From the IMG/VR virus record IMGVR_UViG_3300027792_000023, positions 1 through 53,650 of that record: a stretch of 53,650 nt of DNA; one strand, given 5' to 3'. Under the pieces are notes generated by a model. That model had not been told where the DNA came from and ran no database searches. It worked only from the letters and a program-made list of their open reading frames with translations. Within the stretch, counting starts at the first letter, position 1, and every line of letters begins with the position of its first letter. This document shows, piece after piece, positions 2,885-49,388 of the stretch. Source of the stretch: a virus. Made by a program: the position numbers and the translations under genes.

Positions 2885-5800
2885 ATGCTATTCAATAATT
2901 TTAAAATTTTATCAAAACGCGCCAAAGTTGTCAGTGATAAACCTGCATACAAAGACAAACAAGAAAGTGACAGCGGGAACACAATTTATCACTATGACGA
3001 AAAACATTTATCAAAACGCTGGCAACACAAGCGAGATAAGGTAAAAAATCTCGAAAAAAATGTAAAGAAAATACGAGAACAATATGAGAAGGATTTAAGT
3101 TCAGATGATCCCAGAACACGCGCTATTGCTGCTGTTGTTGGTGTTATAGATGATACGGCCGCGCGCGTTGGAAATCCTGACTCTATTAAAGATCATGACA
3201 CATATGGTATAACTACGCTAAAACTAAAGCACATTTCGTTTAGCGGCGGCAAAGCAAAACTAAAATTCCCAGGAAAAGACAATGTTAATCAAGACCTTAC
3301 TGTTGATAATAAGAAAGTCATTAAGGTCTTAAAAGAACTTACCAAAGACAAGAAAAAAGATGATTTCCTTTTTGAGGTTGATGGGAAAAGAATTTGGGAC
3401 CGTGCTATCAATAGATATTTGTCTCCCTTTAAGATTAGTGCAAAGGATTTGCGCGGTTTCCATGCCAATCGTTTAATGAAAGAGTTACTGAAGAAAAAAG
3501 ACTTTGACGAGGCTTTAGAGGAAACGGCCTCCATTGTGGGTCATGAAAAAGCAACGCTCAAAAATCAATACCTTTTACCCGAATTAGTCGAAAAATACGA
3601 AGGCAAAAAGAAAGATGCTAGCATAATGCGTTTATCAAAACGCGCTGAACTCACACCAGAAGACTTGGCTTGGGTTAATAGCATTAAGGGTTTGACTGCT
3701 GATGTTCCTTCTGCGCCAGCAACACAAACAGGTGGCGTAAAAATAAACAGTTTAATACTAGCTGCTTGGCAAACTTTATTACCATTTTTGCCAAAGGGTT
3801 CTGTGATTACTTCCGGAGAAAGAACGGCAGATGATCAAAAACGAATCCTGGAACACTATTGGCAAAAAGCAACTGGCCAAAAAATACCAGATAAACTTAA
3901 AGCCAATGATAGCGTATGGTTCCAAGTATCTAAGTCTCTTAAAGAGGACTATGGTTATATAGTTGGACCTCCGAAAACAAATGATCCTTATTCTCACTTG
4001 AACGGAAGAGCACTTGATGTTTCTGGTGCAAACTTAAATCAAATTGCCAATATAGCGGCTTCTGTATCAAACAACCCAAAATTACCAGTAAAATTTAGAA
4101 AACCAGTAATAGAGAAGCAAAACAATTGTGTTCATCTGGGAATAGAGAACGCAGAATATAATCCTGCGGCAATTAAAGAAGTATTAAGTAGCGGATTGGG
4201 AGTTACTGCATCTATATCTGTGCGTGCAAATAAATTTTTGGATGAAATGGGTTTTGGTCTTGAAACAGAACAGGGTGATTTATTTGAGAAATCACCAATA
4301 TTCAGGCATTATGATGGCTACCAAACATACAAAATTCATGATATTAGCGAAACAGAAGCTAGCAAATTAGCAAAGAGTGAACCAGACGAATTCTTTTATC
4401 GCGGACTACACAAAGAATACGCTAATCTTGTTCCTGGTGCTTTACGTAGCATGATACAATCGAATGCAAAATTTTTCTTTGTATTTGATTATCACAAAGA
4501 TGAAAAATATTCAGACTTGTTAATTTTGGCCGCCGAACTATTATCTCAACAGGACCCTAGGGCATTTTTCTATTTCGGCCTACATAAAAAGTTTCCAGAA
4601 TTAGGCAGAGGTGCTGTTGTTCAGTTGATTGATACCAATCCGGACTCATTTTTCGATCTTGGTCTGGAAAAAGAATACAGCGATTTAGAGGGAAGTGCTG
4701 GTGCTGCCAGAAACATAAAAGACCCAAATAAAATTGAAATAGAAAAAGATTCTAATTTGAATAAAGCAGCAGAGGAAGACGACGAAGAAAAAAAGAAATT
4801 AGAGGAATATTTGAAACTTCGAGAAAAATATAAGCGATTATTTAAAGACAGAGACTATAAAGAGTTTCCACCAGAGGACCGCAAAAAGGAATTTTGGAAG
4901 CATCAATTTAATCCAAAGGAAATTGGTAGTTTTCCTAGTTTCTGGGAATATCCAAAAGAAGAAGACCCGGATCGTGAGGAAAAAGAAGAAGACCTTAAAA
5001 AAAGACGCAAACAGTACTGGCAGCACCAATTAAGTCCCACCCGGTGGCTTGGCTATGGCGCTATTCCTTTTTGGAAATATCCGAAGAGTTCTGTGATGCC
5101 AGTGCTATCAAAACGCGCAGAAGTCAATGACGTTGCTGGCGTATTTGCAGTATTGCCAAAAGAAATAGCAAAACAATTTAAGTCTCTTGGTGACCACGAC
5201 AACAGTGATCCACACATAACTGTGATTTTTTGCGGTAAAGTAAAAAAGAAAGATAGAAAGTTGCTGGAAGAAACTGTCAGAGGAGTAATAGAAAACTGGA
5301 AGCCCTTTAAAGCAGAATTAGATAGCAAGGTCACTTATTTTCCTGCAACCAAAAATTCAGATGGCTGTAAAATAGCTAAAATGAGTGTGAAATCCAAAGA
5401 ACTTCACAGACTGCACAAAGAATTAAAAGAAGCGATTGAAAGCGCCGGAATAGAAATCGATGATACATTTCCTGATTACAAACCACACGTGACATTGGAA
5501 TATTTAGAAAAAGGTGCAACAAAATACGAAGACGAAGTTCCGGAAGGCTCTTGGGAAATAGATTGTGTAGAAATTTGGGGAATTGGTAAAAATAGAAAAA
5601 TTAAATTTGACAAGCACGAGAAGAAAGCGTGTCTATCAAAACGGGCATCATTCACAGAAGAAGAGGCGAAGGAACTGGCCGAAAAAGGTTCTGATACTTT
5701 TTTTTACTATCACCTACAGGAAACCTACCCACATCTCGCAGAACAGGCGGCGCGTAATCTAGCAAAAGTATCAGCATTTGATTTTTTTTATTACAGACTA

Positions 5801-8800
5801 CACGAAACATACCCACATCTTATAGAATACACAGTACAAAAGTTGGTAGAAGAGAATCCCAAAATGTTCTTTTTTCGTGGTTTTCACAAAACATATCCAC
5901 ATCTTACAGAACAAGCCGCCAAAAACCTAGTAGAAGAGGATTCTGGATATTTCTTTAGTTATGGACTACAGGAAACATTTCCACATCTTACAGAACAAGC
6001 CGCCAAAAGCCTAGCAGAAAAGGATCCTGATACTTTGTTTTTTAGGAAACTAGATAAAATTTATCCACAATTAGGTGAGTTGGCAGCCAAAAACCTAGCA
6101 GAAAATAAACCTGCCGATTTCTTTTACTTCAAGCTGCATAAAACCTACCCACAAATAGGAGAACAGGTGGCCAAATACCTGGCAGAAAATAATATTAGTA
6201 CATTCTTTCATTACAATTTACAAGAAATCTACCCAAAACAGGGCGAGCTACTATCAAAAAATCTAGCAGAAAAGGATCCTGATACTTTCTTTCGCAGGGA
6301 ATTACACAAAATTTATCCGCAACTAGGTGAATTGGCAGCAAAGAGTACGGCAGAAGAGGATCCAAAAAAGTTCTTTCTTTTTGGATTACACAAAACCTAT
6401 ACACACTTTGCAGAATTGGCAGCAAAAGGCATTGCGGAAATCATTCCTGGTTATTTCTTTGATACTGAATTACATAAAATATACCCACAGTTATCAGAAC
6501 AGGCTGCCGAAAATTTGGCGAAAGAAAATATTGTGTCCTTCTTTTATCGCAAAATACACGAAACCTATCCACATATCGCAGAACAAGCTGCCAAAAACCT
6601 AGCAGAAAATGATGAGGGAGAATTCTTTAAATTAAATTTGCAAAAAACTTATCCACAGTTTGCGGAACAACCAATAACAAATAGATTAAAAGCACAGAAA
6701 CAATTTGATTACGAAAATCCCGATCACAGAAATAGACCTCTTAAAGCAAAACAATTAGCCAGTAAAATGTATAATCAGGGATATAAAACCTACATACACA
6801 CTAATGATTTAGATGATTTGGATGGAATCGGCAGTATTCCTGGGGAAATTTGTGTAAGTTCTTGGGACTTATCCAGAAAACTGTTTTCCTCAAGCCCAAT
6901 GACTTACGCTGCAATTTTTGAGGGAAGACCTTCACATTTCTTTAATCAAGATGCTTGGTCTGACGTAGGTCAGGATGGCCTACGATTTTTGACAAGTATT
7001 GGGAGAGATAGGGACTTTTACGAAATGGATGAAAACCATGACGAAGCTTGGTTTAATCCACTAGCACCAGGAAACAAATTAGTTGGCTTTGCTTTAGTGG
7101 GAATACCGAAAGATCAAGAAACATATCAAGATGGAAAGAAAAAACTACAAAAACTGGCGGAGAAAAACGGAGTAGCGTATTTGGAGTTTGGAGAAAATCC
7201 TTGGGACTTGAAAAAAATCAGAGAAAAACCTTTAATGAAAGAATATGAAAAACCAAACCCAATGATCAGCAAATATAAAAATCTACCAGAAATGAGAGAC
7301 TACGCTAAACTGAAACTATCAAAACGTGCCGAAGAGGAAACAACAATACAACTTACCGACAAAGAAAAACAAATCTTTGATGTTTTGCTTGAAACAATAA
7401 AGCATTTTAATTTAAAATCCACCATTAGAGTTGCCGGCGGTTGGGCTAGAGATAAAATACTTGGGAAAAATAGTAAAGACATAGATATAGCAATTGATAA
7501 TATGTCTGGTAAGCAGTTTGCCGAAAAAGTATTGCTATTTGCTCGCACGAAAAACATTCCAGTAAAATCAGTTGGAGTAATAGAGGCCAGACCAGAACAA
7601 TCAAAACATCTCGAAACAGCTGTGGTTAATTTACTAGGCGAGAGTATAGACTTTGTAAATTTGCGCGCAGAAAAATATGATCCAGAAACCAGAATTCCAA
7701 CGGCAGTTCCTGGAACTGCTCTTGAGGACTCATATCGTAGAGACTTGACCATTAATAGTTTATTTTACAATATTAATACTGGGAAAATAGAAGATTTGAC
7801 CGGCAAAGGTATAGATGATTTAAAAAATAAAATAATAAGAACGCCAGTTCCGCCGAAGGAAATTTGGTCACAGGTTGGAATTACAGACGAATCACAAGCA
7901 ATTACTCCAAAGAAAACCTTTATGGATGACCCACTTCGTGTTCTTCGTGCAATTAGGTTTGCCTCAAGATACGGATTTTCTTTGGCACCAGAATTAATGG
8001 AAGCAGCAAAGGACCCCGAAGTTCAGGAATCATTTAAAAACAAAATATCTAGAGAGCGCATCGAGGCAGAATTAAGAAAAATGATAACTGGTCCAAATCC
8101 TGTTTGGGCTCTAAATTTAATAAACGAGTTGGGTTTTAGGTCTGAAGTATTAAAACTCCCAGAACAAACAAACTGGAAAACCGGTGATGAAGATATTTGG
8201 GGAAACATAATTCAAACACTGGATAATTTACAAAGTATAATAAAAGAAAGAAATTTGGGTGAAGCAGACAAGTTCGTTATTAATTTTGCGGCATTCTTGC
8301 ATGATGTTGGCCTACTTGATCCAAAAAACCAAGACGCGAAAAAATTGGAGAAATCCATTGGACGATCTGAATCCAGCGTCGTAGTCGCAGAACATGTATT
8401 ACGAAATTTGCCAGGCGTAAGGGTTGATGAAATAGAAAGAGTAAAGAAACTAATAGATGCCACCAAACTAATAGAAAACCAAAAACACGATTTGTCTGCT
8501 ATTACACGAAAACAATTGGGTAATTTTGTTAGAGCAATAGGAGACGATTGGGAAAATGCAGTTGATATTTTGGCTGCACGAAACAAGGCCAACGAAGGAT
8601 TTAGTCCAGAGTATTACAGTGGAATTAAAAAACAGGTAAAGGATTTTGGTCTTGAAAAAGCCCACACAATGAAACCGCTTTTGACTGGCGAAGAATTAAT
8701 GAAATTGTTTGAAAGAAAGGGCGGAAAGTGGATGGGAGACCTAAATAGAGAACTAATTCAATGGCAGTTAGAAAATCCAAACGCAACGAAGGATGATGCA

Positions 8801-10693
8801 ATTGTCGCAGCAAAAGACATTTATGGTAAGTTTGGGTTAGATAAAAAATCATCTCTTGGCCGTTTGTCTAAATTGGCTAGTGCTGGTTTTTCAGATAAAG
8901 ATGTAATTGATTTATACAAATTTATGTATTTGCGAAACCAATTAGAAAGAAGAGGAGACCCGGAAAGCGATAGTTATATTGAGTATTTAGATGAAACTAT
9001 GAATGATAAACTAAAGCATATTTTTTATGTCCTGTCGACGGTATTTGAAAAATGGCTAAAAAGACATCGAGCTATGTTTGGTGATTTAAATAATCTAGAG
9101 AATTTTGAAACCGCCGTTGCATGGTATGTTGGTAATTTAATGGATCATGTGCATGAAAAAGACATCAACAAGGCGGAGCAATACTTACCACAGTCTCGTG
9201 ATGAGGTTTTAAAGTGGAAAAATACATTTAATACAATACACGAAATATACGAAAATCTTGCAAAAGGTCCATCCAGAGACATGAATAGTAATTTCTCTAT
9301 AATAAGTCGCGCAATTGGGGCATCACATATCCATGGTGATATGTTGTCGTATATTAAAGAAACAGTCGATGATCCAAACCAACAAATTACGCCAGAATTA
9401 ATGTCTCAATTGACTTCTGGAAAACACGAAGATTTTAAAGAGTGGAACAAAGAACTGCGAAGAATTGGTTGTAAAAAATTACACTTATCGAAGAGAGCGT
9501 CTGTTTCTGAAGAAGAAGCAAAAGACCTAGCAGAAAAAGATCCAGATAGTTTCTTTATAGACAAACTACACAAAATATACCCCAAACTTGGTGGGTTAGC
9601 TGCAAAGAATTTAGCAGAAAAAGATCCTAATAAATTCTTTTCTAGATCACTACATATAACCTACCCACATCTTGAGGAATTAGCAGCCAAAAACCTATCA
9701 GAAAATGATCATTATAGTTTTTTTTATAATGGATTACACGAAATTTATCCGCAACTAGGTGAGCAAGCTGCCAAAAACCTAGCAGAAAATGATTTTCATG
9801 AGTTCCTTGCTTTTGGGTTACACAAAATCTATCCCCAAACCGCAGTTCAAGCAGCAAAAAATCTGTCAGAAAAAGATCCAGAAAATTTCTTTTATTTCGA
9901 ACTACAGCAAATCTATCCACAATTCGGGGCCCTGGCGGCCAAAAAGATAGCAGAAGATGATGCAGAGAAATTCTTTAAATTAAATTTGCAAAAAACTTAC
10001 CCACAGTTTTCAGAACAACTCATAAAAAACAGACTAAAAGCACAGAAACAATTTGACGAGGAAAATCCAAATCGCAAAAATAGGCCACTTAAAGCAAAGC
10101 AATTGGCTAATGAAATGTATAATCATGGATATAAAACCTACATACACACTAATCACCTAGAAGATTTAGACGGAATTGGTAGTATTCCTGGGGAAATTTG
10201 TGTAAGTTCTTGGGATTTGTCTCGTAAGCTTTTTTCTGCAAACCCAATGACTTATGCTGCTATTTTTGAGGGGAAGCCTTCACACTTTTTTAATCAAGAT
10301 GTTTATTCTAATATAGGCAAAGATGGCTTGCGGGTTTTGACAGACACCATGCGTGATGACACCTCTATTTACGAAATGGATGAAAACCATGACGAAGCTT
10401 GGTTTAATCCACTTACTCCGGGAAACAAACTGGTTGGTTTTGCTTTAGTGGGAATACCAAAAGACGAAAAAGAATACCAAGAAGCCAAGAAACAGCTACA
10501 AAAACTAGCGGAGAAAAATGGAGTATCTTTCCTAGAATTTGGTGAAAGTCCCTGGGACTTGAAAAAAATCAGAGAAAAACCTTTGATGAAAGAATATGAA
10601 AAACCAAACCCAATGATCAGCAAATATAAAAATCTACCAGAAATGAGAGACTACGCTAAACTGAAACTATCAAAACGAACCAACATTGGTTGA
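2885..10693 (+). CDS. Giant multidomain cargo polyprotein (TopIB, M15-like peptidase, 2H phosphoesterase, CCA-adding enzyme, repeat arrays)
   Basis: 2,602 residues, the largest gene in the window. Motif LSKRA or a near variant (LSKLA, LSKRT) occurs at residues 9-13, 250-254, 741-745, 917-921, 1478-1482, 1994-1998, 2201-2205 and 2595-2599. These sites fall between recognisable modules: topoisomerase IB (14-249), M15-like peptidase plus degenerate repeats (255-740), 2H phosphoesterase (746-916), twelve 28-residue repeats plus an unknown domain (922-1477), CCA-adding/HD enzyme (1483-1993), a helical unknown (1999-2200), and six repeats plus a second copy of the unknown domain (2206-2594). The modules have no common pathway except action on DNA, RNA and cell wall, so separate release is more plausible than one large enzyme. 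Inference: the protein is packaged in the head and cut at or near LSKRA by the prohead protease encoded at 18143. No signal peptide is seen. The eight-residue leader before the first LSKRA resembles a cleaved capsid-targeting peptide. Confidence 0.85.
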   Translation: MLFNNFKILSKRAKVVSDKPAYKDKQESDSGNTIYHYDEKHLSKRWQHKRDKVKNLEKNVKKIREQYEKDLSSDDPRTRAIAAVVGVIDDTAARVGNPDSIKDHDTYGITTLKLKHISFSGGKAKLKFPGKDNVNQDLTVDNKKVIKVLKELTKDKKKDDFLFEVDGKRIWDRAINRYLSPFKISAKDLRGFHANRLMKELLKKKDFDEALEETASIVGHEKATLKNQYLLPELVEKYEGKKKDASIMRLSKRAELTPEDLAWVNSIKGLTADVPSAPATQTGGVKINSLILAAWQTLLPFLPKGSVITSGERTADDQKRILEHYWQKATGQKIPDKLKANDSVWFQVSKSLKEDYGYIVGPPKTNDPYSHLNGRALDVSGANLNQIANIAASVSNNPKLPVKFRKPVIEKQNNCVHLGIENAEYNPAAIKEVLSSGLGVTASISVRANKFLDEMGFGLETEQGDLFEKSPIFRHYDGYQTYKIHDISETEASKLAKSEPDEFFYRGLHKEYANLVPGALRSMIQSNAKFFFVFDYHKDEKYSDLLILAAELLSQQDPRAFFYFGLHKKFPELGRGAVVQLIDTNPDSFFDLGLEKEYSDLEGSAGAARNIKDPNKIEIEKDSNLNKAAEEDDEEKKKLEEYLKLREKYKRLFKDRDYKEFPPEDRKKEFWKHQFNPKEIGSFPSFWEYPKEEDPDREEKEEDLKKRRKQYWQHQLSPTRWLGYGAIPFWKYPKSSVMPVLSKRAEVNDVAGVFAVLPKEIAKQFKSLGDHDNSDPHITVIFCGKVKKKDRKLLEETVRGVIENWKPFKAELDSKVTYFPATKNSDGCKIAKMSVKSKELHRLHKELKEAIESAGIEIDDTFPDYKPHVTLEYLEKGATKYEDEVPEGSWEIDCVEIWGIGKNRKIKFDKHEKKACLSKRASFTEEEAKELAEKGSDTFFYYHLQETYPHLAEQAARNLAKVSAFDFFYYRLHETYPHLIEYTVQKLVEENPKMFFFRGFHKTYPHLTEQAAKNLVEEDSGYFFSYGLQETFPHLTEQAAKSLAEKDPDTLFFRKLDKIYPQLGELAAKNLAENKPADFFYFKLHKTYPQIGEQVAKYLAENNISTFFHYNLQEIYPKQGELLSKNLAEKDPDTFFRRELHKIYPQLGELAAKSTAEEDPKKFFLFGLHKTYTHFAELAAKGIAEIIPGYFFDTELHKIYPQLSEQAAENLAKENIVSFFYRKIHETYPHIAEQAAKNLAENDEGEFFKLNLQKTYPQFAEQPITNRLKAQKQFDYENPDHRNRPLKAKQLASKMYNQGYKTYIHTNDLDDLDGIGSIPGEICVSSWDLSRKLFSSSPMTYAAIFEGRPSHFFNQDAWSDVGQDGLRFLTSIGRDRDFYEMDENHDEAWFNPLAPGNKLVGFALVGIPKDQETYQDGKKKLQKLAEKNGVAYLEFGENPWDLKKIREKPLMKEYEKPNPMISKYKNLPEMRDYAKLKLSKRAEEETTIQLTDKEKQIFDVLLETIKHFNLKSTIRVAGGWARDKILGKNSKDIDIAIDNMSGKQFAEKVLLFARTKNIPVKSVGVIEARPEQSKHLETAVVNLLGESIDFVNLRAEKYDPETRIPTAVPGTALEDSYRRDLTINSLFYNINTGKIEDLTGKGIDDLKNKIIRTPVPPKEIWSQVGITDESQAITPKKTFMDDPLRVLRAIRFASRYGFSLAPELMEAAKDPEVQESFKNKISRERIEAELRKMITGPNPVWALNLINELGFRSEVLKLPEQTNWKTGDEDIWGNIIQTLDNLQSIIKERNLGEADKFVINFAAFLHDVGLLDPKNQDAKKLEKSIGRSESSVVVAEHVLRNLPGVRVDEIERVKKLIDATKLIENQKHDLSAITRKQLGNFVRAIGDDWENAVDILAARNKANEGFSPEYYSGIKKQVKDFGLEKAHTMKPLLTGEELMKLFERKGGKWMGDLNRELIQWQLENPNATKDDAIVAAKDIYGKFGLDKKSSLGRLSKLASAGFSDKDVIDLYKFMYLRNQLERRGDPESDSYIEYLDETMNDKLKHIFYVLSTVFEKWLKRHRAMFGDLNNLENFETAVAWYVGNLMDHVHEKDINKAEQYLPQSRDEVLKWKNTFNTIHEIYENLAKGPSRDMNSNFSIISRAIGASHIHGDMLSYIKETVDDPNQQITPELMSQLTSGKHEDFKEWNKELRRIGCKKLHLSKRASVSEEEAKDLAEKDPDSFFIDKLHKIYPKLGGLAAKNLAEKDPNKFFSRSLHITYPHLEELAAKNLSENDHYSFFYNGLHEIYPQLGEQAAKNLAENDFHEFLAFGLHKIYPQTAVQAAKNLSEKDPENFFYFELQQIYPQFGALAAKKIAEDDAEKFFKLNLQKTYPQFSEQLIKNRLKAQKQFDEENPNRKNRPLKAKQLANEMYNHGYKTYIHTNHLEDLDGIGSIPGEICVSSWDLSRKLFSANPMTYAAIFEGKPSHFFNQDVYSNIGKDGLRVLTDTMRDDTSIYEMDENHDEAWFNPLTPGNKLVGFALVGIPKDEKEYQEAKKQLQKLAEKNGVSFLEFGESPWDLKKIREKPLMKEYEKPNPMISKYKNLPEMRDYAKLKLSKRTNIG
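2924..3631 (+). other. Module 1: type IB DNA topoisomerase domain
   Basis: Catalytic features of poxvirus/bacterial TopIB are in order: Arg94 in DDTAARVGN, the lysine region TTLKLKHI, KDLRGFHANR, His220 in VGHEKATLKNQY, and nucleophile Tyr229 (codon 3569-3571), nine residues after the His as in vaccinia topoisomerase. It would relax supercoils through a 3'-phosphotyrosine intermediate. At about 236 residues it is shorter than vaccinia topoisomerase and appears to lack most of the N-terminal clamp. Confidence 0.85.
3647..5104 (+). other. Module 2: M15-like D,D-peptidase domain plus degenerate repeats
   Basis: VITSGERT followed by YSHLNGRALDVSG and later NNCVHLGI match the SxHxxGxAxD-type and C-terminal His zinc-binding motifs of M15 peptidases, which cut peptidoglycan stem peptides. 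After it come four degenerate copies of the 28-residue repeat (4367-4708), an acidic linker, and two tandem copies of a Trp/Pro-rich unit (FWKHQFNPKE..., then YWQHQLSPTR...). Family placement is likely but not certain. Confidence 0.65.
4367..4708 (+). repeat. Degenerate 28-residue repeats, first cluster (4 copies)
   Basis: Four units with the pattern LxxxxPxxFFxxGLHKxxPxL; three are 28 residues and one is 30. DPRAFFYFGLHKKFPEL is the clearest. They are more diverged than the two later clusters in the same protein. Confidence 0.7.
5120..5632 (+). other. Module 3: 2H phosphoesterase (2'-5' RNA ligase-like) domain
   Basis: Two HxT signatures, PHITVIF and PHVTLEYL, are separated by about 90 residues with the central fold intervening, as in LigT-like and cyclic phosphodiesterase enzymes. 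Such enzymes act on 2',3'-cyclic or 2'-5' phosphodiester bonds in RNA or nucleotides; some viral members degrade 2'-5' oligoadenylates or other cyclic-nucleotide alarm signals. The substrate cannot be read from the sequence. Confidence 0.8.
5675..6682 (+). repeat. Array of twelve 28-residue (84-base) protein repeats
   Basis: Twelve consecutive units of exactly 28 residues, with consensus LAExDPxxFFxxxLHKxYPxL then xEQAAKN. Phe-Phe at positions 9-10, Tyr-Pro at 18-19 and Ala-Ala near 25-26 are nearly invariant. The pattern suggests two short helices per unit, that is an alpha-solenoid. I cannot assign it to a named repeat family. Confidence 0.9.
6683..7315 (+). other. Module 4b: unknown domain, copy 1
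   Basis: About 210 residues after the first repeat array, paralogous to 10031-10666. Conserved points include GYKTYIHTN, SIPGEICVSSWDLSRKLF, PMTYAAIFEG, DENHDEAWFNPL and NKLVGFALVGIPKD. The mixed alpha/beta pattern and the acidic HDEAWF segment could suit an ADP-ribosyltransferase-like or other small enzyme fold, but no catalytic motif is secure. Confidence 0.5.
7331..8863 (+). other. Module 5: CCA-adding tRNA nucleotidyltransferase with HD domain
   Basis: The nucleotidyltransferase head is clear: AGGWARDKILG followed by DIDIAID (GG..DxD), RRDLTINSLFYN, and DDPLRVLRAIRFASRYGF, the class II CCA-adding/poly(A) polymerase signature. An HD segment, FAAFLHDVGLLD, follows. The enzyme would add or repair the 3' CCA end of tRNA. 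Its length, about 511 residues, fits the bacterial HD-containing enzymes. Confidence 0.88.
8879..9484 (+). other. Module 6: helical domain of unknown function
   Basis: About 202 residues between an LSKLA and an LSKRA site. Mostly helical, rich in aromatic and charged residues, with His pairs such as LMDHVHEKD and GASHIHGDM that could bind metal. No family recognised. Confidence 0.5.
9527..10030 (+). repeat. Array of six 28-residue (84-base) protein repeats
   Basis: Six consecutive units of the same 28-residue repeat as 5675-6682, for example LAEKDPDSFF then LHKIYPKLGGLAAKN. The last unit is nearly identical to the last unit of the first array (FFKLNLQKTYPQF), so array and following domain were duplicated together. 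Confidence 0.9.
10031..10666 (+). other. Module 7b: unknown domain, copy 2
   Basis: Second copy of the domain at 6683-7315. DNA from about 10556 to 10678 differs at a single base from 7202-7325, far closer than the rest of the pair, which points to recent duplication or gene conversion. It ends in LSKRT and then three residues and a TGA stop. Confidence 0.6.
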
Positions 10694-10737
10694 AATATAC
10701 TAATAAAATCACATTTATCAGTAGAAGGAGAGAGTTT

Positions 10738-11418: not shown

Positions 11419-11419
11419 T

Positions 11420-11794
11420 ATGCGTCCTCTATCAATTCGGCACAAAATAGCAACAATTGAAGCCTCCAAGTCTGGTGTCGGCGTAAGTGCTGGTGCGAGA
11501 AAATATATGAGAACCGCTATGCCCGAATATAAGAGCGTTGGAAATGCTGAACTAAACGAGCTAATCGTGTTTGAGTTTTCAAAGTGCGCGCCGTGGAGCA
11601 GATTCAAACTAAATAAAACACTAGATGGAATAGCCGAAATAAGAAAAAGTTCGAGGTTTGTATTCGTCGCTAGAATAAGAGATAGAGGGACATCGCAGTC
11701 TGGGTATGATATTATAACGATACAACCAAACTCTAAAGAGGTTTCAGAAAAAATTAGAAAACTACGCCTACAGCCCGGTTGGGGCTTTGAATAA
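11420..11794 (+). CDS. Hypothetical basic protein
   Basis: 124 residues, beginning one base after the ferritin stop. Basic and mixed alpha/beta, with strands such as SRFVFVARIRDRG and YDIITIQPN. No recognised domain. Gene order places it in the head/cargo operon. It lacks the LD..G helical motif found in most neighbours. Confidence 0.65.
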   Translation: MRPLSIRHKIATIEASKSGVGVSAGARKYMRTAMPEYKSVGNAELNELIVFEFSKCAPWSRFKLNKTLDGIAEIRKSSRFVFVARIRDRGTSQSGYDIITIQPNSKEVSEKIRKLRLQPGWGFE

Positions 11795-15837: not shown

Positions 15838-16017
15838 ATGGCACTTGTAAAATATGGAACAGAAATGCCAGTCATTTCCTATTACGACCAGAATGGCGTG
15901 AAAGAAGTTTGCCCCGATTGTGGAAAACTTCTCACGGTTGTTGTGCTGGACGACAATGATACCATCCTTGTGTGCGAGTACTGTATTAAAAAAGAAATCA
16001 AGCAGGAGTCCCGTTAA
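15838..16017 (+). CDS. Small zinc-ribbon protein
   Basis: 59 residues. The ATG follows directly on the previous TAG, and the TAA shares its last base with the next ATG. Two CxxC pairs, CPDC and CEYC, are separated by about 20 residues of beta-rich sequence, as in a zinc ribbon. No catalytic residues. It may bind nucleic acid or protein. Tight packing with both neighbours and an intact frame support a real gene. Confidence 0.75.
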   Translation: MALVKYGTEMPVISYYDQNGVKEVCPDCGKLLTVVVLDDNDTILVCEYCIKKEIKQESR

Positions 16018-17481: not shown

Positions 17482-18150
17482 ATGGAAAAGAAGTGCAAGA
17501 GATGTAATGAAACAAAGACCGAGGAATGTTTTTATCTCAATAAAAAAACATTAAAACGCGCAAATATATGTATTGCTTGTGACAAGAAGAGATTAAAGGA
17601 ATATAGAATCAAAAACAAGGACAAGTTGTCTGCGCGGACGAAAGAGTGGCAAAAACAAAACCCAGAAAAAGCAAAAAAGAATAGGGACAATTGGGCAAGA
17701 AAACACAAAGAAAAAGTAAATGCAAAAAGCAAGCGGTGGAAGGATAAGAATAAAAAACATTCATTAGAATATAATAGTGCTGTATATGCCAGTAGAAAAC
17801 ATGATCCAATGTATATGCTTCCTAGAAATTTGAGGACTAGACTATATCAGGCAATTAAACATAATTTTAAGTCTGGCTCAGCAGTGGCGAGTCTTGGTTG
17901 TTCTATAAAGAGTTTTAAAAAATATATGGAATCTAAATTTTATGATAATAAAAAAACAAAAATGAAGATGTCTTGGGATAACTATGGCAAAAATGGCTGG
18001 CACATTGATCACATTATCCCTTTGGCAAGTTTTGATTTAAGTGACGCTAGTCAGCTTGCAATAGCATGTCACTATACTAATTTACAACCGTTGTGGGCAG
18101 AAGAAAATTTTAAAAAGGGCAATAGAGTTGAGGAGATCAAAAATGTTTAA
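17482..18150 (+). CDS. HNH homing endonuclease
   Basis: 222 residues, one base after the previous stop. An N-terminal zinc cluster (CKRCNETKTEECF, then CIACDKK) is followed by a basic spacer and the HNH end WHIDHIIPLASFDL with ACHYTNLQPLWAEEN. The last eight bases overlap the protease gene, and that gene's ribosome-binding site (GAGGAG) lies inside this coding sequence, so downstream expression is preserved despite the insertion. Confidence 0.85.
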   Translation: MEKKCKRCNETKTEECFYLNKKTLKRANICIACDKKRLKEYRIKNKDKLSARTKEWQKQNPEKAKKNRDNWARKHKEKVNAKSKRWKDKNKKHSLEYNSAVYASRKHDPMYMLPRNLRTRLYQAIKHNFKSGSAVASLGCSIKSFKKYMESKFYDNKKTKMKMSWDNYGKNGWHIDHIIPLASFDLSDASQLAIACHYTNLQPLWAEENFKKGNRVEEIKNV

Positions 18151-21100
18151 AAAACTTGGAGAAAATTTTGATTTTTCTTCATCCAGTTTGCTTGAACCAA
18201 AACAAGCACTACAAGACACGGAAATTGCTGCACGTTTTGTTAAAATGGCAAAAAAGTTACGTCGAATTGCGCCAAAGGCTAAAGATTTCGTGTACGGAGA
18301 TGCCATTATTATGCACTCGGCCGAGGCTTCGTTGATCGACTTGAATACAGGAAAACCAATATTAAACAAAAATGGAGAGCCGGTTCAGGGATGTTTTGAG
18401 GACTTTATAAACAAAAAAGGCGTAAAATCTGTTAGATGGATTTCAAAAGATGGTATTAAGCCATATAAAAATAAAAACGGTGATATTTTCAGTGAAGCAG
18501 AGTTGTTAAAAGCATACAAAAAATGGATAGGTAAGCCTCTGTGTAAAGATCATATCTCTGATTCGGTTGATGGTATTCGAGGAATAATCATTGATACATA
18601 TTATGATAGTAAATTCAAGAGGGTACGCGCTCTTTTTGCCTTAGACCGCAAAAACTACGGTGACTTGGCTCGTAAAGTTGAGTCTGGTTATGCTACAGCG
18701 GTTTCCATGGGCACTGCGGTTGGTAGAGCGGTTTGCACAGAATGCGGAAATGTTGCAGTTACCGAGAAAGAGTACTGCAATTGTATTCGTTCCCACGCAA
18801 ACTATGGCGAAATAAACCTGGACCTAAGCCCACTAGAACTATCTCTCGTTGTTAATGGTGCTGATGGACTCGCTCATGTTAGAAATGTCATCGCTTCTAT
18901 GAATAATTATGTAGAAACTAAACAGGCACGAATTTGCGAGTTGGTTAATGATAGATGCGTTAATCCAACAGAACTACAGAGTATAGCCGATTCTCTCTCG
19001 GATATGCAAACCAAAATAAGTGGATTACTTGGTCTTACGAAAAAAGCAGATCTCGGAGAAGATGTCGCTGCTTTAAGGGAAATTTCAAAAATGGAAGAGT
19101 CCCTCAATGATCCAGAAAAATCAGAAGAGACCAAGGAAAAACTTAAAAAACGAATCCATGATCTTGAAATACAACTTGATCGCGCTGGTGAAGAACAAAA
19201 ACAAGAAAAAACTTGGCCACCAGTTAGACCAGGACCAGTTCCTTCATTGCCAAGTTCTATGGACGGTGATGCAAGCGATTTAGGCAAACCAAGCACAACT
19301 ACTTTCAATGGATTTGCCGAACCAAACCTACGATATGCGAGTTTAGAAGGAGACAAACAGGGTGCTTTGTCAGTTGAATTAGGTCTCCTTCGATCCAAAA
19401 TAGATAAAATGCAAGACAGTTTGAATGTATTGAATACAAAAGTCTCTAAGGAGGAGAATATTATGAATTCTGCTAGATTACGTGCGCGTGCTAAGGCACG
19501 AAGGGCTTATTGGCTTGGCGGTGGTGGTATCAATGAACCAACACCTGGACAACCAAAGTATGAGAAAGATCCTATGGCCGAGAAAGTGCGAGATAGTGAA
19601 GATAAGCAAATGGTGGGAGAACCACTTGAAACTGGATCCGAAGGCTTGCACCCTGGTGATGAAGAGAAATTGAGAGACGCTGGTCGCAATGGTCTAAACC
19701 TAAGTAAGGCCGAACTCAAAGAACGCGCTTTAAAGCGTCGTGGTTATTTCCAAGGTGGCGGCGGCATTAATGAACCAACACCTGGGCAGCCAAAGTATGA
19801 GAAAGATCCTATGGCCGAGAATGTTCGTGACAAGGAAGATAAGCAGTTGGAGACCTATGACATGGGCGGGACCGATGGAACCGTTCCTGGTGATATGGAA
19901 ATAAAGAAAACACTATTGCGTGCCAAGTTGCGCGCAAAGTTTGTTAAGGTTGCTGATAGAACCGGTGGAATCAATAAGGCTGCTTCTCGTTGGGAAGTTT
20001 ATGCTGGCGATAAGATGATTCTTACTGCTACCGGCAAAGAAATCTTTGATGACCAGCTCGAAGGTAGTTGGGATTATCTAAGTTCAAGAGATTACGGCAA
20101 AGATGTTATCGCTGCAATTAGGTCTGACGGTTTTGATCGTGTTGCCTACTTGCTTAAGGGCGCAGCCGATCCAATGCCTGCCGATCCGTTGGCAGGAGAT
20201 CCTTTGGCTGGTCTTCCAGCCGCTGCTCCAGCTCCGGATGCGGCTCCACCAGCCGCAGAAGCACCTGCTGAGCCAAAGAAAGAAGAGGGCGGGGTTAAAG
20301 AGAAGGTAGATTCTGCTCTCGGCGAAATGGAGGAAGCAATTGAGTCAGTTAGATCCGCCGTTACAGAGGGTGGCGAAAAGTTGGTTGATATAGAGGTAAA
20401 GGTTGATGAGGATGCAAAGGGTGAAGGCAAAGATTCAACCCCAGTTGCTGCCCTTACTGCCGCTGAAAGAAGCGAGTTAATGGAATTGCATGCGTTGCTA
20501 AATGAATCAGCAGACGAATTGGCCCTAATAAGTGAAGCACTAGAGTCAAATAAGTCAGACCGCAGGGTTGTTAATGCCGCTTACCAGGCTCTTTCTGATG
20601 CTCAAATTATCCTAGAGGCCAAGAAAAAGAAGGTGAAGGACGACGAAGAGGAAGACAAGGAAGATGGTAAGGGTTTCTTTGGCAAAAAGGACAAGAAGGA
20701 CGAAGACAAGGACGACAAGAAAGATAAGAAGGACGAGGATAAAGACGACAAGAAGGAAGATAAGGACGAGAAGAAAGATAAGAAGGATGCGAAAAAGGAC
20801 AAGAAGGACGAAGACAAGGAAGATGAGAAGGAATCAAAGGCACAGAAGTTGCTAAATGACGCTCTTCGCGTTCGTTCTGAAAACCGCGCCGCATTGCTGT
20901 CAAAGATGGCAGAGCCCGAATTAAAAGACATGGTTAAGGAAAAGGTTAATACAGAAATTAAGAAGGAGTTAGAGGGCGGATTGCCAGCCGATGATGCAAT
21001 GCTAGATGACAGTGGGTGTCTTGGTTGCACAGATGACGTTGTAGAAAGCGATGAATCTGCAAAGCTGGCTCGACGGAAGGCTCGTGAAGAATTGGTTGCT

Positions 21101-21817
21101 AATGCCGCCAAGAGTCTTTTGGGCAAGTACGAGTTGGATCTTGGTCCAGCATCAAACGCCACCGAACCAACTTATTTCCAAGCTCATCCAAGTGGCAAGG
21201 GAACTGTTACCGAGCTTACTCACACAAAAACACCTGAAGCTAAGGTTGAGACAATTTCAGAAGTTCATGATGTTATGCGTGATGTAGCAGAGTCAGGTCC
21301 TCGTAATGTTCGTGAAGCCGCTGCTCTATTACAGGAAGCAATTGTTAAGGGTGCTTTCTCGTCTGCCGATGTGGACGGCTTAGTTGCAGAGGGTAAGGTT
21401 GATGCTGCTGCTGCCGCTTATTGGAAGAAATACTTTGCTATGGCTCCCGATTCAAATAATTTTGGAGCGGAACTAAGCAAGGAATTTGCTACCAAGAAGA
21501 AGGCATCAGAGGATACCAATTATAAGGTTAAGCTTCGCAGAGCTTATGACATTGGTCTCATGGCACAGGAAAAGGGAATGATAGGTGAAACCCGTGCATC
21601 ACTTGATACCTATGTTGATGAGGTTATGCAGTTTGATGACGCTGCATTTGAATCAACCAAGCGTATTGTTGCTGGTATGAGCGGCCGTAGTAAGAAGTCG
21701 TCTCTTCCAAGGGTTGGAGCTGATGCAGCTAATGAAGCTATGAATGTTACTGCCAGCTCAGATGTTGCTCCTGTTGTAAGTTTGACAGACCAACTCGGTA
21801 GCTTGGGTTGGAAGTAA
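18143..21817 (+). CDS. Prohead protease fused to scaffold/core protein
   Basis: 1,224 residues from the ATG at 18143, which has GAGGAG nine bases upstream; an in-frame TTG at 18128 is less likely. Residues about 45-260 match prohead serine proteases of large phages: His137 in GKPLCKDH, Ser188 in TAVSMGT, a Cys cluster (CTECG, YCNC) and the LELSLVVNGAD end. The rest is scaffold-like: coiled coil, two near-identical repeats (GGGGINEPTPGQPKYEKDP at 19513 and 19753), a Pro/Ala linker, an extreme Lys/Asp/Glu run (20620-20840) and a helical C-terminus. The protease matures the capsid by cleaving scaffold and other head proteins. An LSKMA site at about 20896 resembles the LSKRA motifs of the polyprotein. 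The shorter product starting at 19463 is listed separately. Confidence 0.82.
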   Translation: MFKKLGENFDFSSSSLLEPKQALQDTEIAARFVKMAKKLRRIAPKAKDFVYGDAIIMHSAEASLIDLNTGKPILNKNGEPVQGCFEDFINKKGVKSVRWISKDGIKPYKNKNGDIFSEAELLKAYKKWIGKPLCKDHISDSVDGIRGIIIDTYYDSKFKRVRALFALDRKNYGDLARKVESGYATAVSMGTAVGRAVCTECGNVAVTEKEYCNCIRSHANYGEINLDLSPLELSLVVNGADGLAHVRNVIASMNNYVETKQARICELVNDRCVNPTELQSIADSLSDMQTKISGLLGLTKKADLGEDVAALREISKMEESLNDPEKSEETKEKLKKRIHDLEIQLDRAGEEQKQEKTWPPVRPGPVPSLPSSMDGDASDLGKPSTTTFNGFAEPNLRYASLEGDKQGALSVELGLLRSKIDKMQDSLNVLNTKVSKEENIMNSARLRARAKARRAYWLGGGGINEPTPGQPKYEKDPMAEKVRDSEDKQMVGEPLETGSEGLHPGDEEKLRDAGRNGLNLSKAELKERALKRRGYFQGGGGINEPTPGQPKYEKDPMAENVRDKEDKQLETYDMGGTDGTVPGDMEIKKTLLRAKLRAKFVKVADRTGGINKAASRWEVYAGDKMILTATGKEIFDDQLEGSWDYLSSRDYGKDVIAAIRSDGFDRVAYLLKGAADPMPADPLAGDPLAGLPAAAPAPDAAPPAAEAPAEPKKEEGGVKEKVDSALGEMEEAIESVRSAVTEGGEKLVDIEVKVDEDAKGEGKDSTPVAALTAAERSELMELHALLNESADELALISEALESNKSDRRVVNAAYQALSDAQIILEAKKKKVKDDEEEDKEDGKGFFGKKDKKDEDKDDKKDKKDEDKDDKKEDKDEKKDKKDAKKDKKDEDKEDEKESKAQKLLNDALRVRSENRAALLSKMAEPELKDMVKEKVNTEIKKELEGGLPADDAMLDDSGCLGCTDDVVESDESAKLARRKAREELVANAAKSLLGKYELDLGPASNATEPTYFQAHPSGKGTVTELTHTKTPEAKVETISEVHDVMRDVAESGPRNVREAAALLQEAIVKGAFSSADVDGLVAEGKVDAAAAAYWKKYFAMAPDSNNFGAELSKEFATKKKASEDTNYKVKLRRAYDIGLMAQEKGMIGETRASLDTYVDEVMQFDDAAFESTKRIVAGMSGRSKKSSLPRVGADAANEAMNVTASSDVAPVVSLTDQLGSLGWK
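19448..19456 (+). promoter_or_regulatory. Internal ribosome-binding site for nested scaffold
   Basis: AAGGAGGAG, a near-perfect Shine-Dalgarno, six bases before an in-frame ATG at 19463, in the middle of the protease/scaffold frame. It is stronger than the site used for the full-length product. It suggests a second, probably more abundant product. Confidence 0.7.
19463..21817 (+). CDS. Nested scaffold protein from internal in-frame start
   Basis: 784 residues, same frame and stop as the protease gene, beginning MNSARLRARAKARR after a very strong ribosome-binding site. It omits the protease domain and the linker after it. Lysine codons switch from mostly AAA upstream to largely AAG in this part, as in the capsid gene, consistent with high expression of the nested product. 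Nested scaffold genes inside protease genes are established in other phages (lambda C and Nu3). Both repeats, the charged run and the helical C-terminus belong to this product. Confidence 0.65.
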   Translation: MNSARLRARAKARRAYWLGGGGINEPTPGQPKYEKDPMAEKVRDSEDKQMVGEPLETGSEGLHPGDEEKLRDAGRNGLNLSKAELKERALKRRGYFQGGGGINEPTPGQPKYEKDPMAENVRDKEDKQLETYDMGGTDGTVPGDMEIKKTLLRAKLRAKFVKVADRTGGINKAASRWEVYAGDKMILTATGKEIFDDQLEGSWDYLSSRDYGKDVIAAIRSDGFDRVAYLLKGAADPMPADPLAGDPLAGLPAAAPAPDAAPPAAEAPAEPKKEEGGVKEKVDSALGEMEEAIESVRSAVTEGGEKLVDIEVKVDEDAKGEGKDSTPVAALTAAERSELMELHALLNESADELALISEALESNKSDRRVVNAAYQALSDAQIILEAKKKKVKDDEEEDKEDGKGFFGKKDKKDEDKDDKKDKKDEDKDDKKEDKDEKKDKKDAKKDKKDEDKEDEKESKAQKLLNDALRVRSENRAALLSKMAEPELKDMVKEKVNTEIKKELEGGLPADDAMLDDSGCLGCTDDVVESDESAKLARRKAREELVANAAKSLLGKYELDLGPASNATEPTYFQAHPSGKGTVTELTHTKTPEAKVETISEVHDVMRDVAESGPRNVREAAALLQEAIVKGAFSSADVDGLVAEGKVDAAAAAYWKKYFAMAPDSNNFGAELSKEFATKKKASEDTNYKVKLRRAYDIGLMAQEKGMIGETRASLDTYVDEVMQFDDAAFESTKRIVAGMSGRSKKSSLPRVGADAANEAMNVTASSDVAPVVSLTDQLGSLGWK

Positions 21818-25715: not shown

Positions 25716-25727
25716 TTGGAGACAACA

Positions 25728-27926
25728 ATGAAACACATAGGATTTAGCGAAAGCACTGTTATGGGAGAATACGCAAGAATAGCGAGTGAGCAAGGACTCA
25801 TTAAGGTTGCTGATATTCAGTTTGGAGAGCCAGAGATAAAAACGGATACAAGGTGGTCTCCATCTATGTCTGTGGATGACTACACTGACTATGTTCTTAA
25901 AAATGTATTTAAACTAGATACATCTGTTGCTCCAACAATTCAGTCGGCACAACTATTTCCACAATTATTGGTCAAATACGAACAGTATCTCCGCAGTGTT
26001 GTTTCTGCACAGGTTGGTGCGCTGTCTGGTAGAGAAGATCGCGCTGCCGCTCACAAATTTCATTCTGATGTAAGAAAGGCAATTGGCAATAAGGTATCAG
26101 AATGGTATAAACTTAATAAATTACCAGTAGCGCAGAGCGAAGTTTCTTTTATTGTCCCGGCTCAAAAATTATATTCAGCAATAGTTGAGGGCATTGCCCC
26201 AATTAGCCAAGAAGCAAATGACGGTGGTGCAAACCCACTGACACCTCATATGCAACGTCTTAACAGTACATTTGCAAATCTTATGAAGCAGTATGGTAAC
26301 GATCAGGCAAAGGTGAGACCACTATACAACAAAAAAGTTGATGAAATGATGAAATCATTAGAGAAATTTAAAAGTAATCCCGCCAATATACCTGTGCTAA
26401 AACAATTCGAGAGTTCTGCCAGACAAATTGGAATAGATGTAGACAAAAAGAAATCCAGCAAACTTGATATTGATTTATCCAAGCGAGCCAAGGGTAATTC
26501 TGGCGGAGTTTATGATGTTTCTGGCGAAACCGGAGAACAATTGATAGATTCTGCTCACCCAGGCAAAATGAGAACAGAACTAACCAGCAAAACCGATGAA
26601 AATTTGGTAGAAACAATCATAGAACAGCAGGTTCGTGACATCGAAGTTGCAAACAGTATTCCAAAGGGAACATACGCTGCCCTAGTAAGTCTTGTCGCTA
26701 AACTCAATAAGATGGGGTATTCAAAGCAGGCAGAACCGCTAAAGAAAATGATCGTTAAATTAAACGGCTTTAATATGGTGGATGTAGAACTTATATCTCT
26801 GGCTATGAAACTAAAAGACGGTGGCCTTAAAAAAGAGGCAGTAAAAGTAATACGATTACTATCAAAAAAAGCACAGGGAACCCAGGAATCGGTTAATGAG
26901 ACACTACCTAAGGTTTCCGGAAATCTATCAAGTCTAGTGTCTTCAATGAATGCCTTGGGACTTGGAAACAACCAGGAATTCGCAGGTATTTTAGATGAAT
27001 TAAAGAGAGACCTTACTAATATACAGAACATACAAGCTGTAGCAGCGATGGATAGAAAAACGGCAGATGGGGCTCAAAATTCACTTAAAGAGATATTAGC
27101 AAACCTCAATAAAGCACAATCAGTAATTGTTGTTGCATCAAGGTCTGGCGAATTTACTGGTATGCCCGGTGATATAAGTAGTGTAAGCAAAAGTATAGGT
27201 TCCACAATTTCATCTGTTGTTGCTGCATCAGTGGCGGTTAGGTCATTTGCAGAGACCCTGCCGCAAGAAGTTGCACAGCCAACCGAACAAGAAAAGAAAA
27301 AGATACCGTTCATAAAGCAGTTGTTGTCTGAAGAGAAATTTGCCAATGAGTGGGGTAAGAGATTTAATGCACAATTAGAGGAAATAAGGGAAAAGAATGA
27401 TGTCTCCGAACAGTATCTTCCTGATGAAATTAGTGCACTGCGAGCAAAAACCGATGGAAGTTGGGATGAGCTAAAACGAAGCCTAAGCAATATAGTTAAG
27501 GTATGGCGATCTAAAGGAAAGTGGAATGATTTTATTAAATACATAGATGATGTTATGAAGAATGTTAATATGGATTTTAAGGACAAGGACAGTCCCTCTG
27601 ACACAGTTCCCGATGTAGAACAAGAAACAAAGATATCAGGTGACCGCAGCGCAGAGGATATTAGAAGATATAATCAAATGATTCATGATCGCGCATTGGA
27701 GCTAACAAAGTGGTCTTATGCAAATTCCGCAAAATTAATCGGAGTTGATTTGAGGAATTCTGGCATTACCCCAGCACAAGCACGGCAATGGAGAGATAAA
27801 CTATATGAAGACGCTTTTAGTTTCATAAGGGATGTGACGCCGTATGTGCTGGATGCTGCTGCAAGCCCGCTTCAAGACTTAAGACAAGATTTTACTGATT
27901 TTGTTAAAGAGAAATATAAGAAATAA
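25728..27926 (+). CDS. Large helical head-block protein with LSKRA site
   Basis: 732 residues from the ATG at 25728 (TTGGAGAC site); a TTG 12 bases upstream is part of that site. LSKRA occurs at residues 250-254 (26475-26489), in the linker after a helical N-terminal domain. Two hairpin-like segments follow near residues 315-350 and 355-380 (LVAKLNKMGYSKQAE; LAMKLKDGGLKKEA), the latter ending RLLSKKAQG. The C-terminal half is helical, with no enzymatic motif. If LSKRA is cleaved, it would give products of about 250 and 480 residues. Likely an internal or ejected virion protein, by position and motif. Confidence 0.7.
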   Translation: MKHIGFSESTVMGEYARIASEQGLIKVADIQFGEPEIKTDTRWSPSMSVDDYTDYVLKNVFKLDTSVAPTIQSAQLFPQLLVKYEQYLRSVVSAQVGALSGREDRAAAHKFHSDVRKAIGNKVSEWYKLNKLPVAQSEVSFIVPAQKLYSAIVEGIAPISQEANDGGANPLTPHMQRLNSTFANLMKQYGNDQAKVRPLYNKKVDEMMKSLEKFKSNPANIPVLKQFESSARQIGIDVDKKKSSKLDIDLSKRAKGNSGGVYDVSGETGEQLIDSAHPGKMRTELTSKTDENLVETIIEQQVRDIEVANSIPKGTYAALVSLVAKLNKMGYSKQAEPLKKMIVKLNGFNMVDVELISLAMKLKDGGLKKEAVKVIRLLSKKAQGTQESVNETLPKVSGNLSSLVSSMNALGLGNNQEFAGILDELKRDLTNIQNIQAVAAMDRKTADGAQNSLKEILANLNKAQSVIVVASRSGEFTGMPGDISSVSKSIGSTISSVVAASVAVRSFAETLPQEVAQPTEQEKKKIPFIKQLLSEEKFANEWGKRFNAQLEEIREKNDVSEQYLPDEISALRAKTDGSWDELKRSLSNIVKVWRSKGKWNDFIKYIDDVMKNVNMDFKDKDSPSDTVPDVEQETKISGDRSAEDIRRYNQMIHDRALELTKWSYANSAKLIGVDLRNSGITPAQARQWRDKLYEDAFSFIRDVTPYVLDAAASPLQDLRQDFTDFVKEKYKK

Positions 27927-29750: not shown

Positions 29751-30381
29751 ACGAGCCTTTGAAATAGAGGATTTATGGCAACAGATTAGTTCTGTTTGGC
29801 ACACTAACGAGGGTTTTTGTGAAAATCTGTTTAGGATTTCATCATACCTTTTGCCATTTGTTCCTGGTTTGGGGTGGAGTGTTTTTATACTTGAAAAAAT
29901 TGCTGCGTTTTTTGGATTTGGTTTAGCAGACTTGGGTGCAGCAATTGATAGGTTTGCTGGGTGGGAACCTAGTAATAATTTAAACATTGGTCAGAGCGAG
30001 TTTTCTTCTGTTTTGGTAGATTTCATAACCACTCAATCTAAATCTGTAAATGCTTCTAAAAACCTAGAGCAAATAACAAAAACTGCTTGGTTTGGTGGTC
30101 TAATAAAACTAATCCAATTATTGCCAAGAGCAATTGTTCCACTAACGAATGCAGTCAAGTTTATGCTACTGACATTTGGATTTTCAAAGGTTGGTGAAAT
30201 ATATTCTGCCGTAAGTGGAACAACAAAGGCCCCGGGTGCCTTGATGTTGGAAAACTCAAAACCCCAAAAAACAGAATTGCTATCAGAAGAGAACATTAGT
30301 GCGTTTAAAGACCTTATATCAAACCCACTCAATGTTGTAAAACCACTAACAGACCTATATAAAGTAATGGAGACAAAATGA
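29731..30381 (+). CDS. Putative membrane-active virion protein with N-terminal LSKRA
   Basis: 216 residues from the GTG at 29731, eight bases after GGAGG; the longer frame from 29650 would overlap the previous gene by 101 bases. The chosen start puts LSKRA at residues 5-9 (MQHVLSKRA), matching the position of the first LSKRA in the polyprotein. Two hydrophobic stretches follow (SSYLLPFVPGLGWSVFILE; LIQLLPRAIVPLTNAVKFML). It overlaps the previous gene by 20 bases and the next by four. Candidate ejection-channel component. Confidence 0.7.
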   Translation: MQHVLSKRAFEIEDLWQQISSVWHTNEGFCENLFRISSYLLPFVPGLGWSVFILEKIAAFFGFGLADLGAAIDRFAGWEPSNNLNIGQSEFSSVLVDFITTQSKSVNASKNLEQITKTAWFGGLIKLIQLLPRAIVPLTNAVKFMLLTFGFSKVGEIYSAVSGTTKAPGALMLENSKPQKTELLSEENISAFKDLISNPLNVVKPLTDLYKVMETK

Positions 30382-49154: not shown

Positions 49155-49388
49155 ATGAAAGATTTAGATAAATTACAAATTAATTACATAGGGTATAAAG
49201 AACCAGAGTCAGTAATGGAATTGGAAATAGAAATTGCTGGTCTGCGAACGGCGATTGCTTTTGCACAACAGAGAATTGCTGTTTTGGAACAAAGCTTAAA
49301 AATCCGCGATCTTATAGAGCAAAACGGAGCGACGAAACATGAGACGACTATCGATCAGGGAACCGGCGACTCTAAAACGAATAAGTAG
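49155..49388 (+). CDS. Small helical protein
   Basis: 77 residues. A coiled-coil helix (LEIEIAGLRTAIAFAQQRIA, VLEQSLKIRDLIEQ) follows a short N-terminus, with a polar disordered end. Its last 50 bases overlap the start of the metallopeptidase gene in another frame. Function unknown. Confidence 0.58.
   Translation: MKDLDKLQINYIGYKEPESVMELEIEIAGLRTAIAFAQQRIAVLEQSLKIRDLIEQNGATKHETTIDQGTGDSKTNK

Follow-up and report, generated by a model that had tools for sequence, protein, structure and literature searches.

A poly-enzyme with repeated LSKRA-like motifs in the head gene cluster of a jumbo phage related to phage G, a putative motif-addressed head cargo

Phages and conjugative elements encode polyvalent proteins, giant multi-enzyme proteins found in late or virion gene contexts and thought to be injected together with the DNA (Iyer, 2017; PMC5512222). 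They join 2-15 disparate domains in one polypeptide, and 2H domains are present in those of the phage type. Release of the parts by a peptidase, likened to the processing of RNA-virus polyproteins, has been proposed, the enzyme being an embedded MPTase, a common but not universal domain of these proteins (PMC5512222). In phage T4, the ten N-terminal residues of the capsid-targeting sequence (CTS) direct a protein to the core of the prohead and also contain the site at which gp21 cleaves, LIE being an example of T4 cleavage given in the same work (PMC9026906). Jumbo phages process their head and ejection proteins at comparable short sites: SPN3US cuts at A-X-E↓, with V favoured at P4 and S at P1′, and in phiKZ and SPN3US nearly all cuts strip N-terminal propeptides (PMC10052503).

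Here we describe a poly-enzyme of 2,602 residues encoded on the + strand at 2885..10693 of a viral DNA stretch of 53,650 nucleotides (IMG/VR record IMGVR_UViG_3300027792_000023), hereafter the window. In agreement with the preliminary description, the frame is open across its whole length. The protein gathers TopIB, 2H, CCA-adding enzyme, M15-like and other domains, and its neighbourhood is that of phage late/virion genes, with portal (77-1840), protease (18143) and MCP (34408), two traits of polyvalent proteins. By analogy, it would work like a polyvalent protein whose parts bear a leader resembling the T4 CTS, and its injection is predicted. A uniform separator motif, nevertheless, was not found described in PMC5512222, and a search of that text returned no CCA-adding enzymes and topoisomerase only in a reference. 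Primpol is regarded there as specific to conjugative elements (PMC5512222), whereas LigD-Prim-Pol-like modules occur in two of the phage records considered here (G001, G009). The earlier suggestion that such a poly-enzyme had not been described must thus be narrowed: giant injected multi-enzyme proteins are already known, and what is new is the uniform separator, its use as a module leader, and the domain set. No paper combining LSKRA and phage was found in a literature search.

The modules, numbered from the N-terminus and all on the + strand, begin with a TopIB (module 1, 2921..3643, residues 13-253; Pfam PF01028, E 1.9e-30, residues 47-240), which has a homologous fragment in five other polyproteins. 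R94, K131, R190, H220 and Y229 are invariant in its alignment, and by analogy they would be the catalytic residues. Module 2 (3644..4225, residues 254-447) is a weakly assigned M15/VanY-like peptidase, followed by helical repeats with a charged tail (module 3, 4226..5116, residues 448-744). Module 4 (5117..5644, residues 745-920) is a 2H phosphoesterase (PF13563, E 9.5e-12, residues 769-879) with the HxT motif intact twice in the alignment. Module 5 (5645..7327, residues 921-1481) consists of tandem helical repeats of 28 residues (84 nt) and a C-terminal domain. Next come a CCA-adding enzyme/tRNA nucleotidyltransferase (module 6, 7328..8875, residues 1482-1997), whose CCA/poly(A) polymerase head domain covers residues 1515-1652 (PF01743, E 6.6e-25) and which also matches phrog_2244 (E 2e-37) and PDB 9kma (E 3e-83), and a helical module with a homologue in L160 (module 7, 8876..9496, residues 1998-2204). 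Module 8 (9497..10678, residues 2205-2598) is a duplicate of module 5, the DNA of the two being 82-89% identical across two 300-nt pieces; the 84-nt tandem repeats of this duplicated pair, at 5652-6629 and 9504-9977, encode helical repeats of the form FFxxxLHKxYPxLxExAAKxLAE. The identities proposed beforehand for the TopIB, 2H and CCA-adding enzymes are firm, given their Pfam, PHROG and PDB matches. For the M15-like peptidase, the conserved R, HxxGxAxD and H stand, but the window module has no Pfam match, a sub-threshold VanY match (E 0.002) was seen only on a G003 paralogue, and neither Pfam nor PDB profiles confirmed an M15 identity.

Nine sites of the type phi-S-x-R/L-A/T are distributed along the chain on the + strand: six LSKRA, one LSKLA, one LSKRT and one ISVRA. 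The LSKRA copies start at residues 9 (2909..2923, within the N-terminal leader MLFNNFKI-LSKRA), 250 (3632..3646), 741 (5105..5119), 917 (5633..5647), 1478 (7316..7330) and 2201 (9485..9499). LSKLA (residue 1994, 8864..8878) is ISKRA at the homologous position of L160, and LSKRT (residue 2595, 10667..10681) belongs to the C-terminal end LSKRTNIG. These eight had all been listed previously; the ninth, ISVRA (residue 444, 4214..4228), located between the M15-like and helical-repeat modules, had not. Seven of the sites are strict, against 0.124 in shuffles (maximum 3 in 2,000), so that the repetition of the motif in the poly-enzyme is not due to chance. An AlphaFold model of residues 1-1000 was poor (pLDDT 55.5); its five sites fall in low-confidence linkers, but so do 42% of its residues, which makes this weak support. 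The notion of modules separated by the motif holds for the module edges, but the motif is also present at the very ends of the chain, N- and C-terminal, and in further proteins of the head cluster (26475, 28794, 29743, 49348).

The enrichment extends to the clade. In its head-cluster ORFs, [LIF]S[KIVR]R[ADE] is found 48 times, while the 119 permutations of this pattern average 5.2 occurrences and reach 14 at most. In subclade A, defined by an MCP at least about 80% identical (468 ORFs, 156,455 aa), LSKRA ranks first among 5-mers in number of independent contexts (18, with 0.26 expected; ISKRA has 10), and across the whole G003 record the motif is concentrated in the polyprotein and the head-cluster proteins. 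In the sister subclade B (MCP 70-74%; 303 kaa), LSKRA is not enriched and is missing from the list of top 5-mers, and a search there for an alternative enriched pentapeptide gave for the most part strings of low complexity and xKxA words of helical character.

In stand-alone genes of the head cluster, the motif lies 3-13 residues past the start codon, as in MIP-LSKRA, MAWPS-LSRRA, MRR-LSIRE, MKK-LSIRQ and MTTKLA-LSLRA. Of 66 lenient sites in all, 17 fall within the first 25 residues, where the number of ORFs and their total length predict about 5. A short N-terminal leader is therefore common to unrelated head-cluster proteins, as with T4-type CTS. On the + strand of the window, further LSKRA copies stand inside the protein 25716-27926 (26475..26489), before the second part of the protein 27945-29750 (28794..28808; kept in G003, L001 and L016 despite an unrelated upstream flank) and near the N-terminus of the protein 29650-30381 (29743..29757; ISKRA in the G003 homologue). 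Several N-termini carry tandem motifs 8-12 residues apart, and in some polyproteins a motif ends 1-5 residues before the stop codon (LSKRAK in L160, LSKRTNIG in the window). Arg at P1 is broken in the variants LSKLA, LSRLA and ISKLA.

Relatives were recruited by whole-record searches and by searches with module alignments; MCP and module alignments were needed, and the full poly-enzyme used as a single-sequence query against IMG/VR found no relatives. First-type polyproteins in relatives range from 1,290 to about 2,620 aa: 1,290 in G003, at least 1,619 in G001, 2,366 in L161/L173, 2,621 in L170, at least 849 in L171, and 865 + 1,406 in L160, where the CCA module is interrupted between both ORFs. 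Two tandem LW(H/R)G...WF modules, ADP-ribosyltransferase-like by eye, are also found in L160 (ORF 7397-11617, residues 573-872). In silico cutting of the first-type polyproteins at phi-S-x-(R/L)↓, followed by clustering of the fragments with BLAST, yields module families of near-constant length across phages with different module order. The TopIB fragments measure 238-243 aa in five of six polyproteins and 261 aa in L161, whose leader is degenerate; the 2H fragments measure 175-179 aa in five of six, that of G001 being joined to the upstream module; and the CCA fragments measure 516-549 aa in the window, L161 and L170. The helical-repeat fragments and the M15-like ones are linked into a single larger cluster by fragments that contain both.

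The order of the modules is far from fixed. TopIB occupies the N-terminus in the window, G003, L160 and L161 but an internal position in L170 and L171, and in both situations the motif stands immediately upstream (degenerate in L161); the CCA module lies ahead of 2H in L160 and L161 and behind it in the window. In L170 the 2H has been relocated to a gene of its own starting MKL-ISRRH, and a stand-alone 124-aa gene of the window (11420..11794, +), starting MRP-LSIRH, has an L170 homologue fused behind 2H across LSCRH. Thus, modules are reordered, duplicated or relocated as separate genes and the motif remains at their edges. Altogether the first-type polyproteins hold 45 strict sites, where composition shuffles predict 0.62. 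The preliminary description had pointed out that loss of LSKRA with retention of the flanking domains would speak against it; within the clade, the edges of TopIB, 2H and CCA retain the motif at roughly 40-60% identity despite the reordering, and loss with the domain retained is limited to distant relatives (the G004 TopIB; stand-alone 2H genes in L162-L169). That the motif stays constant while enzymes are swapped around it suggests a head-loading label and cut site. In L176, L162, L166, L168 and L169, a TopIB or 2H gene adjoins a portal-like gene and/or protease in the absence of LSKRA, and the position is therefore conserved more widely than the motif.

A second polyprotein type combines ATP ligase, LigD-Prim-Pol-like, DJ-1/PfpI and LigD 3′-phosphoesterase modules; its members are found in G009 (3,474 aa), G006 (2,718 aa), G005 and G004, the domain calls in G005 and G006 having been made partly by eye. 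The poly-enzyme of 3,474 aa at L140:3364-13788 (-), with ATP ligase, LigD-Prim-Pol-like, DJ-1/PfpI, LigD 3′-phosphoesterase and nucleotidyltransferase-like domains, resembles a split NHEJ kit.

The window poly-enzyme belongs to one head cluster with the portal (77-1840), a Dps-like protein, the protease/scaffold (18143-21817) and the MCP (34408-35433). The order portal/protease/MCP is the same in G003, G001 and others, and the poly-enzymes of relatives also lie upstream of the protease. The likeness to the head module of Bacillus (Lysinibacillus) phage G resides in the MCP, 52% identical to gp27, and in the fold of the protease, which matches gp19; the first 40 kb of phage G contain neither the motif nor the polyprotein. 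About 300 IMG/VR stretches encode MCP relatives, and a search of GTDB contigs for the host recovered no relative of the MCP.

The protease (18143..21817, +), which carries a scaffold-like C-terminal part and is the proposed reader of the motif, matches the head maturation protease family phrog_18299 (E 1.1e-11), and H137 and S188 are invariant in an alignment with 18 relatives. A structure model of moderate confidence (pLDDT 70) gave fold matches in BFVD to phage G gp19 (E 5.5e-13) and to an annotated prohead protease (E 1.4e-5); profile and fold searches of PDB gave no useful match. Its identity to the proteases of the sister subclade, where the motif is lacking, remains at about 44-49%, and motif and protease therefore do not co-occur strictly.

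On balance, we lean towards considering the window protein, by analogy with the systems mentioned above, as a packaged, motif-addressed poly-enzyme of a jumbo phage related to phage G, which would be cut by the 18143 protease and its enzymes ejected with the DNA. In this scheme, phi-S-(K/I/V)-R-(A/D/E) would be the head-cargo signal of the clade, marking the N-terminus of every cargo module, whether encoded by a separate gene or strung together with others. The motif would draw the cargo into the prohead core, as the CTS does in T4, and the S-type maturation protease encoded at 18143 would cut after Arg, phi-S-x-R↓A (P4-P1↓P1′), releasing TopIB, 2H, the CCA enzyme and others as separate enzymes that would be ejected along with the DNA. 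The head-cargo precursor first envisaged is partly supported by the multi-enzyme protein itself, its head cluster, the nearby homologue of prohead proteases and the conserved edge motif. A pure separator fits poorly, since the motif is present near the start of stand-alone genes and near stop codons; a targeting tag, possibly cut, fits better, and because the T4 CTS combines targeting and cleavage, a combined tag and cut site is the preferred reading.

In T4, Glu occupies P1 of the cleavage site. Given that the T4 and SPN3US enzymes cut after Glu, Arg at P1 would represent a changed specificity; a phi-S-x-R sequence lacking Glu at P1 may therefore be said to work like a T4 CTS, not to be one. 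The likeness to T4 internal proteins and Alt lies in a short N-terminal peptide on unrelated cargo and a phage-encoded maturation protease (PMC9026906), and the differences in another sequence and in leaders that in T4 stand at protein ends, none being repeated inside one chain. With phiKZ and SPN3US ejection-protein processing it shares jumbo-phage head proteins and a P4-P1 motif with a small P3 and a hydrophobic-leaning P4, although no enzyme chain exists there; in SPN3US gp245, too, P4 is hydrophobic, P3 small, P2 free, P1 charged and P1′ small (PMC10052503). The wider proposal, that the injected arsenal of these phages consists of giant polyproteins of interchangeable cassettes in which a universal pentapeptide is both capsid address and cut site, read by a protease switched from Glu to Arg, seems to us to fall a little short of an even chance.

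Whether the chain is cut at all is where the main alternative departs. The phi-S-x-R-A motif might be a docking tag only, a short linear motif to which the prohead core or the portal region binds. The poly-enzyme would then enter the head, and later the host, intact as one multivalent chain; a precedent for a giant protein that is packaged but escapes processing is the N4 virion RNAP (PMC5512222). The tandem motifs of several N-termini agree with such a tag, as do motifs placed where a cut would gain little, at residues 3-6 of stand-alone genes or at the very C-terminus, and cutting at the near-stop motifs would indeed release almost nothing. The SPN3US enzyme, moreover, auto-cleaves at its own motif, and no convincing copy was found when such sites were sought in the protease-scaffold ORF; both points count against cleavage, as do the variants that have Leu in place of Arg at P1 and the moderate divergence of the protease in the motif-less sister subclade. 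One or two tags, however, would suffice for an uncut chain, yet every internal edge keeps its own motif while the flanks diverge, which is the argument for a cut site, and the R(A/D/E) pattern with variable P2 looks like a protease site. We thus regard docking alone as rather unlikely. If cutting does take place, the enzyme might instead be the HExxH metallopeptidase (49339..49854, +), a zincin that starts MRRLSIREPATLKRISSRE with two motifs, in line with the MPTase proposed to release domains of polyvalent proteins (PMC5512222). A motif-bearing HExxH protein exists in the window, G001, G003, G005, G006, G009, L161 and L171, being a polyprotein module in L161, L171 and G001 and a separate gene in the window. 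Its gene, nonetheless, is about 39 kb from the window polyprotein, the head maturation protease homologue is closer, and the zincin bears the leader itself and so looks like cargo; we find it improbable as the cutter.

Two further explanations dispense with a function of the peptide. Separately tagged genes might have fused, their leaders persisting as passive linkers, a history suggested by the occurrence of the same modules, under the same leader, both within fusions and as genes of their own. Linkers that had become passive should have degenerated, however, and the motifs are retained at roughly 40-60% module identity with codons and flanks fully diverged, which makes such a relic slightly more doubtful still than the zincin. 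The exchange of modules at the motif could also evoke a DNA-level recombination element or repeat of which LSKRA is a reading-frame by-product. Here the 22 LSKRA sites checked have 22 distinct 15-mers, employing two Ser and two Arg codon families; selection therefore acts on the peptide, and a DNA-level repeat, contradicted at all 22 sites, was rejected as extremely improbable. The packaged poly-enzyme cut by the maturation protease remains the reading that we retain.

As for the cargo, the CCA-adding enzyme and 2H could serve tRNA-end repair or the breakdown of nucleotide alarm signals, as has been discussed for their counterparts in jumbo phages and polyvalent proteins (PMC7824862; PMC5512222). 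TopIB, ATP ligase, Prim-Pol and 3′-phosphoesterase would act on the incoming genome, and the M15-like and other cell-wall-related modules on peptidoglycan. If the preferred reading is right, the motif would reveal head-bound proteins of uncultured giant phages independently of proteomics, the about 50 sites in the examined loci flagging candidate injected enzymes: TopIB, CCA-adding enzyme, 2H, ATP ligase, LigD-type phosphoesterase/primase, zincins and peptidoglycan-related proteins. It would also make the processing proposed for polyvalent proteins testable at defined peptide bonds, provide a maturation protease with a new P1 specificity and a short peptide with which proteins could be loaded into large phage capsids, and imply a modular cargo-loading code in which new enzymes reach the virion by acquiring a five-residue leader.

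Several other features of these loci deserve mention. In L177 (735-kb phage LR756501), several neighbouring genes, including a CCA-enzyme ORF, open with a common MIxKFKLFE-like peptide that recalls a T4-type CTS; this megaphage, although unrelated, may package its CCA enzyme. The portal gene of the window (77-1840) harbours an intein-like insertion (ending ..FVTRRNGLITIQGN, with S following), and portal profile matches begin only at residue 311. The sequence (A/G)Y(W/F)xGGGG(I/V)NEPTPG..KY is repeated within the protease-scaffold (18128-21817) and, in the sister subclade (L152, L153, L154), stands at the N-terminus of another head protein. A helical hairpin, LxxLAxxLDxxGxxxEAxxIDxII, recurs N- or C-terminally in many head-cluster proteins and their relatives (10690-11418, 11806-12207, 12207-13103, 13118-13933, 13946-14836, 14805-15155 and 16017-16634 in the window) and is possibly another docking element. 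Finally, the structural cluster is interspersed with many genes that look like homing endonucleases (by eye HNH-, LAGLIDADG- or GIY-YIG-like), at 1850-2605, 16638-17480, 17482-18150, 24557-25288, 33570-34322, 35663-37195, 37192-37824, 47232-48269 and 51284-51925.
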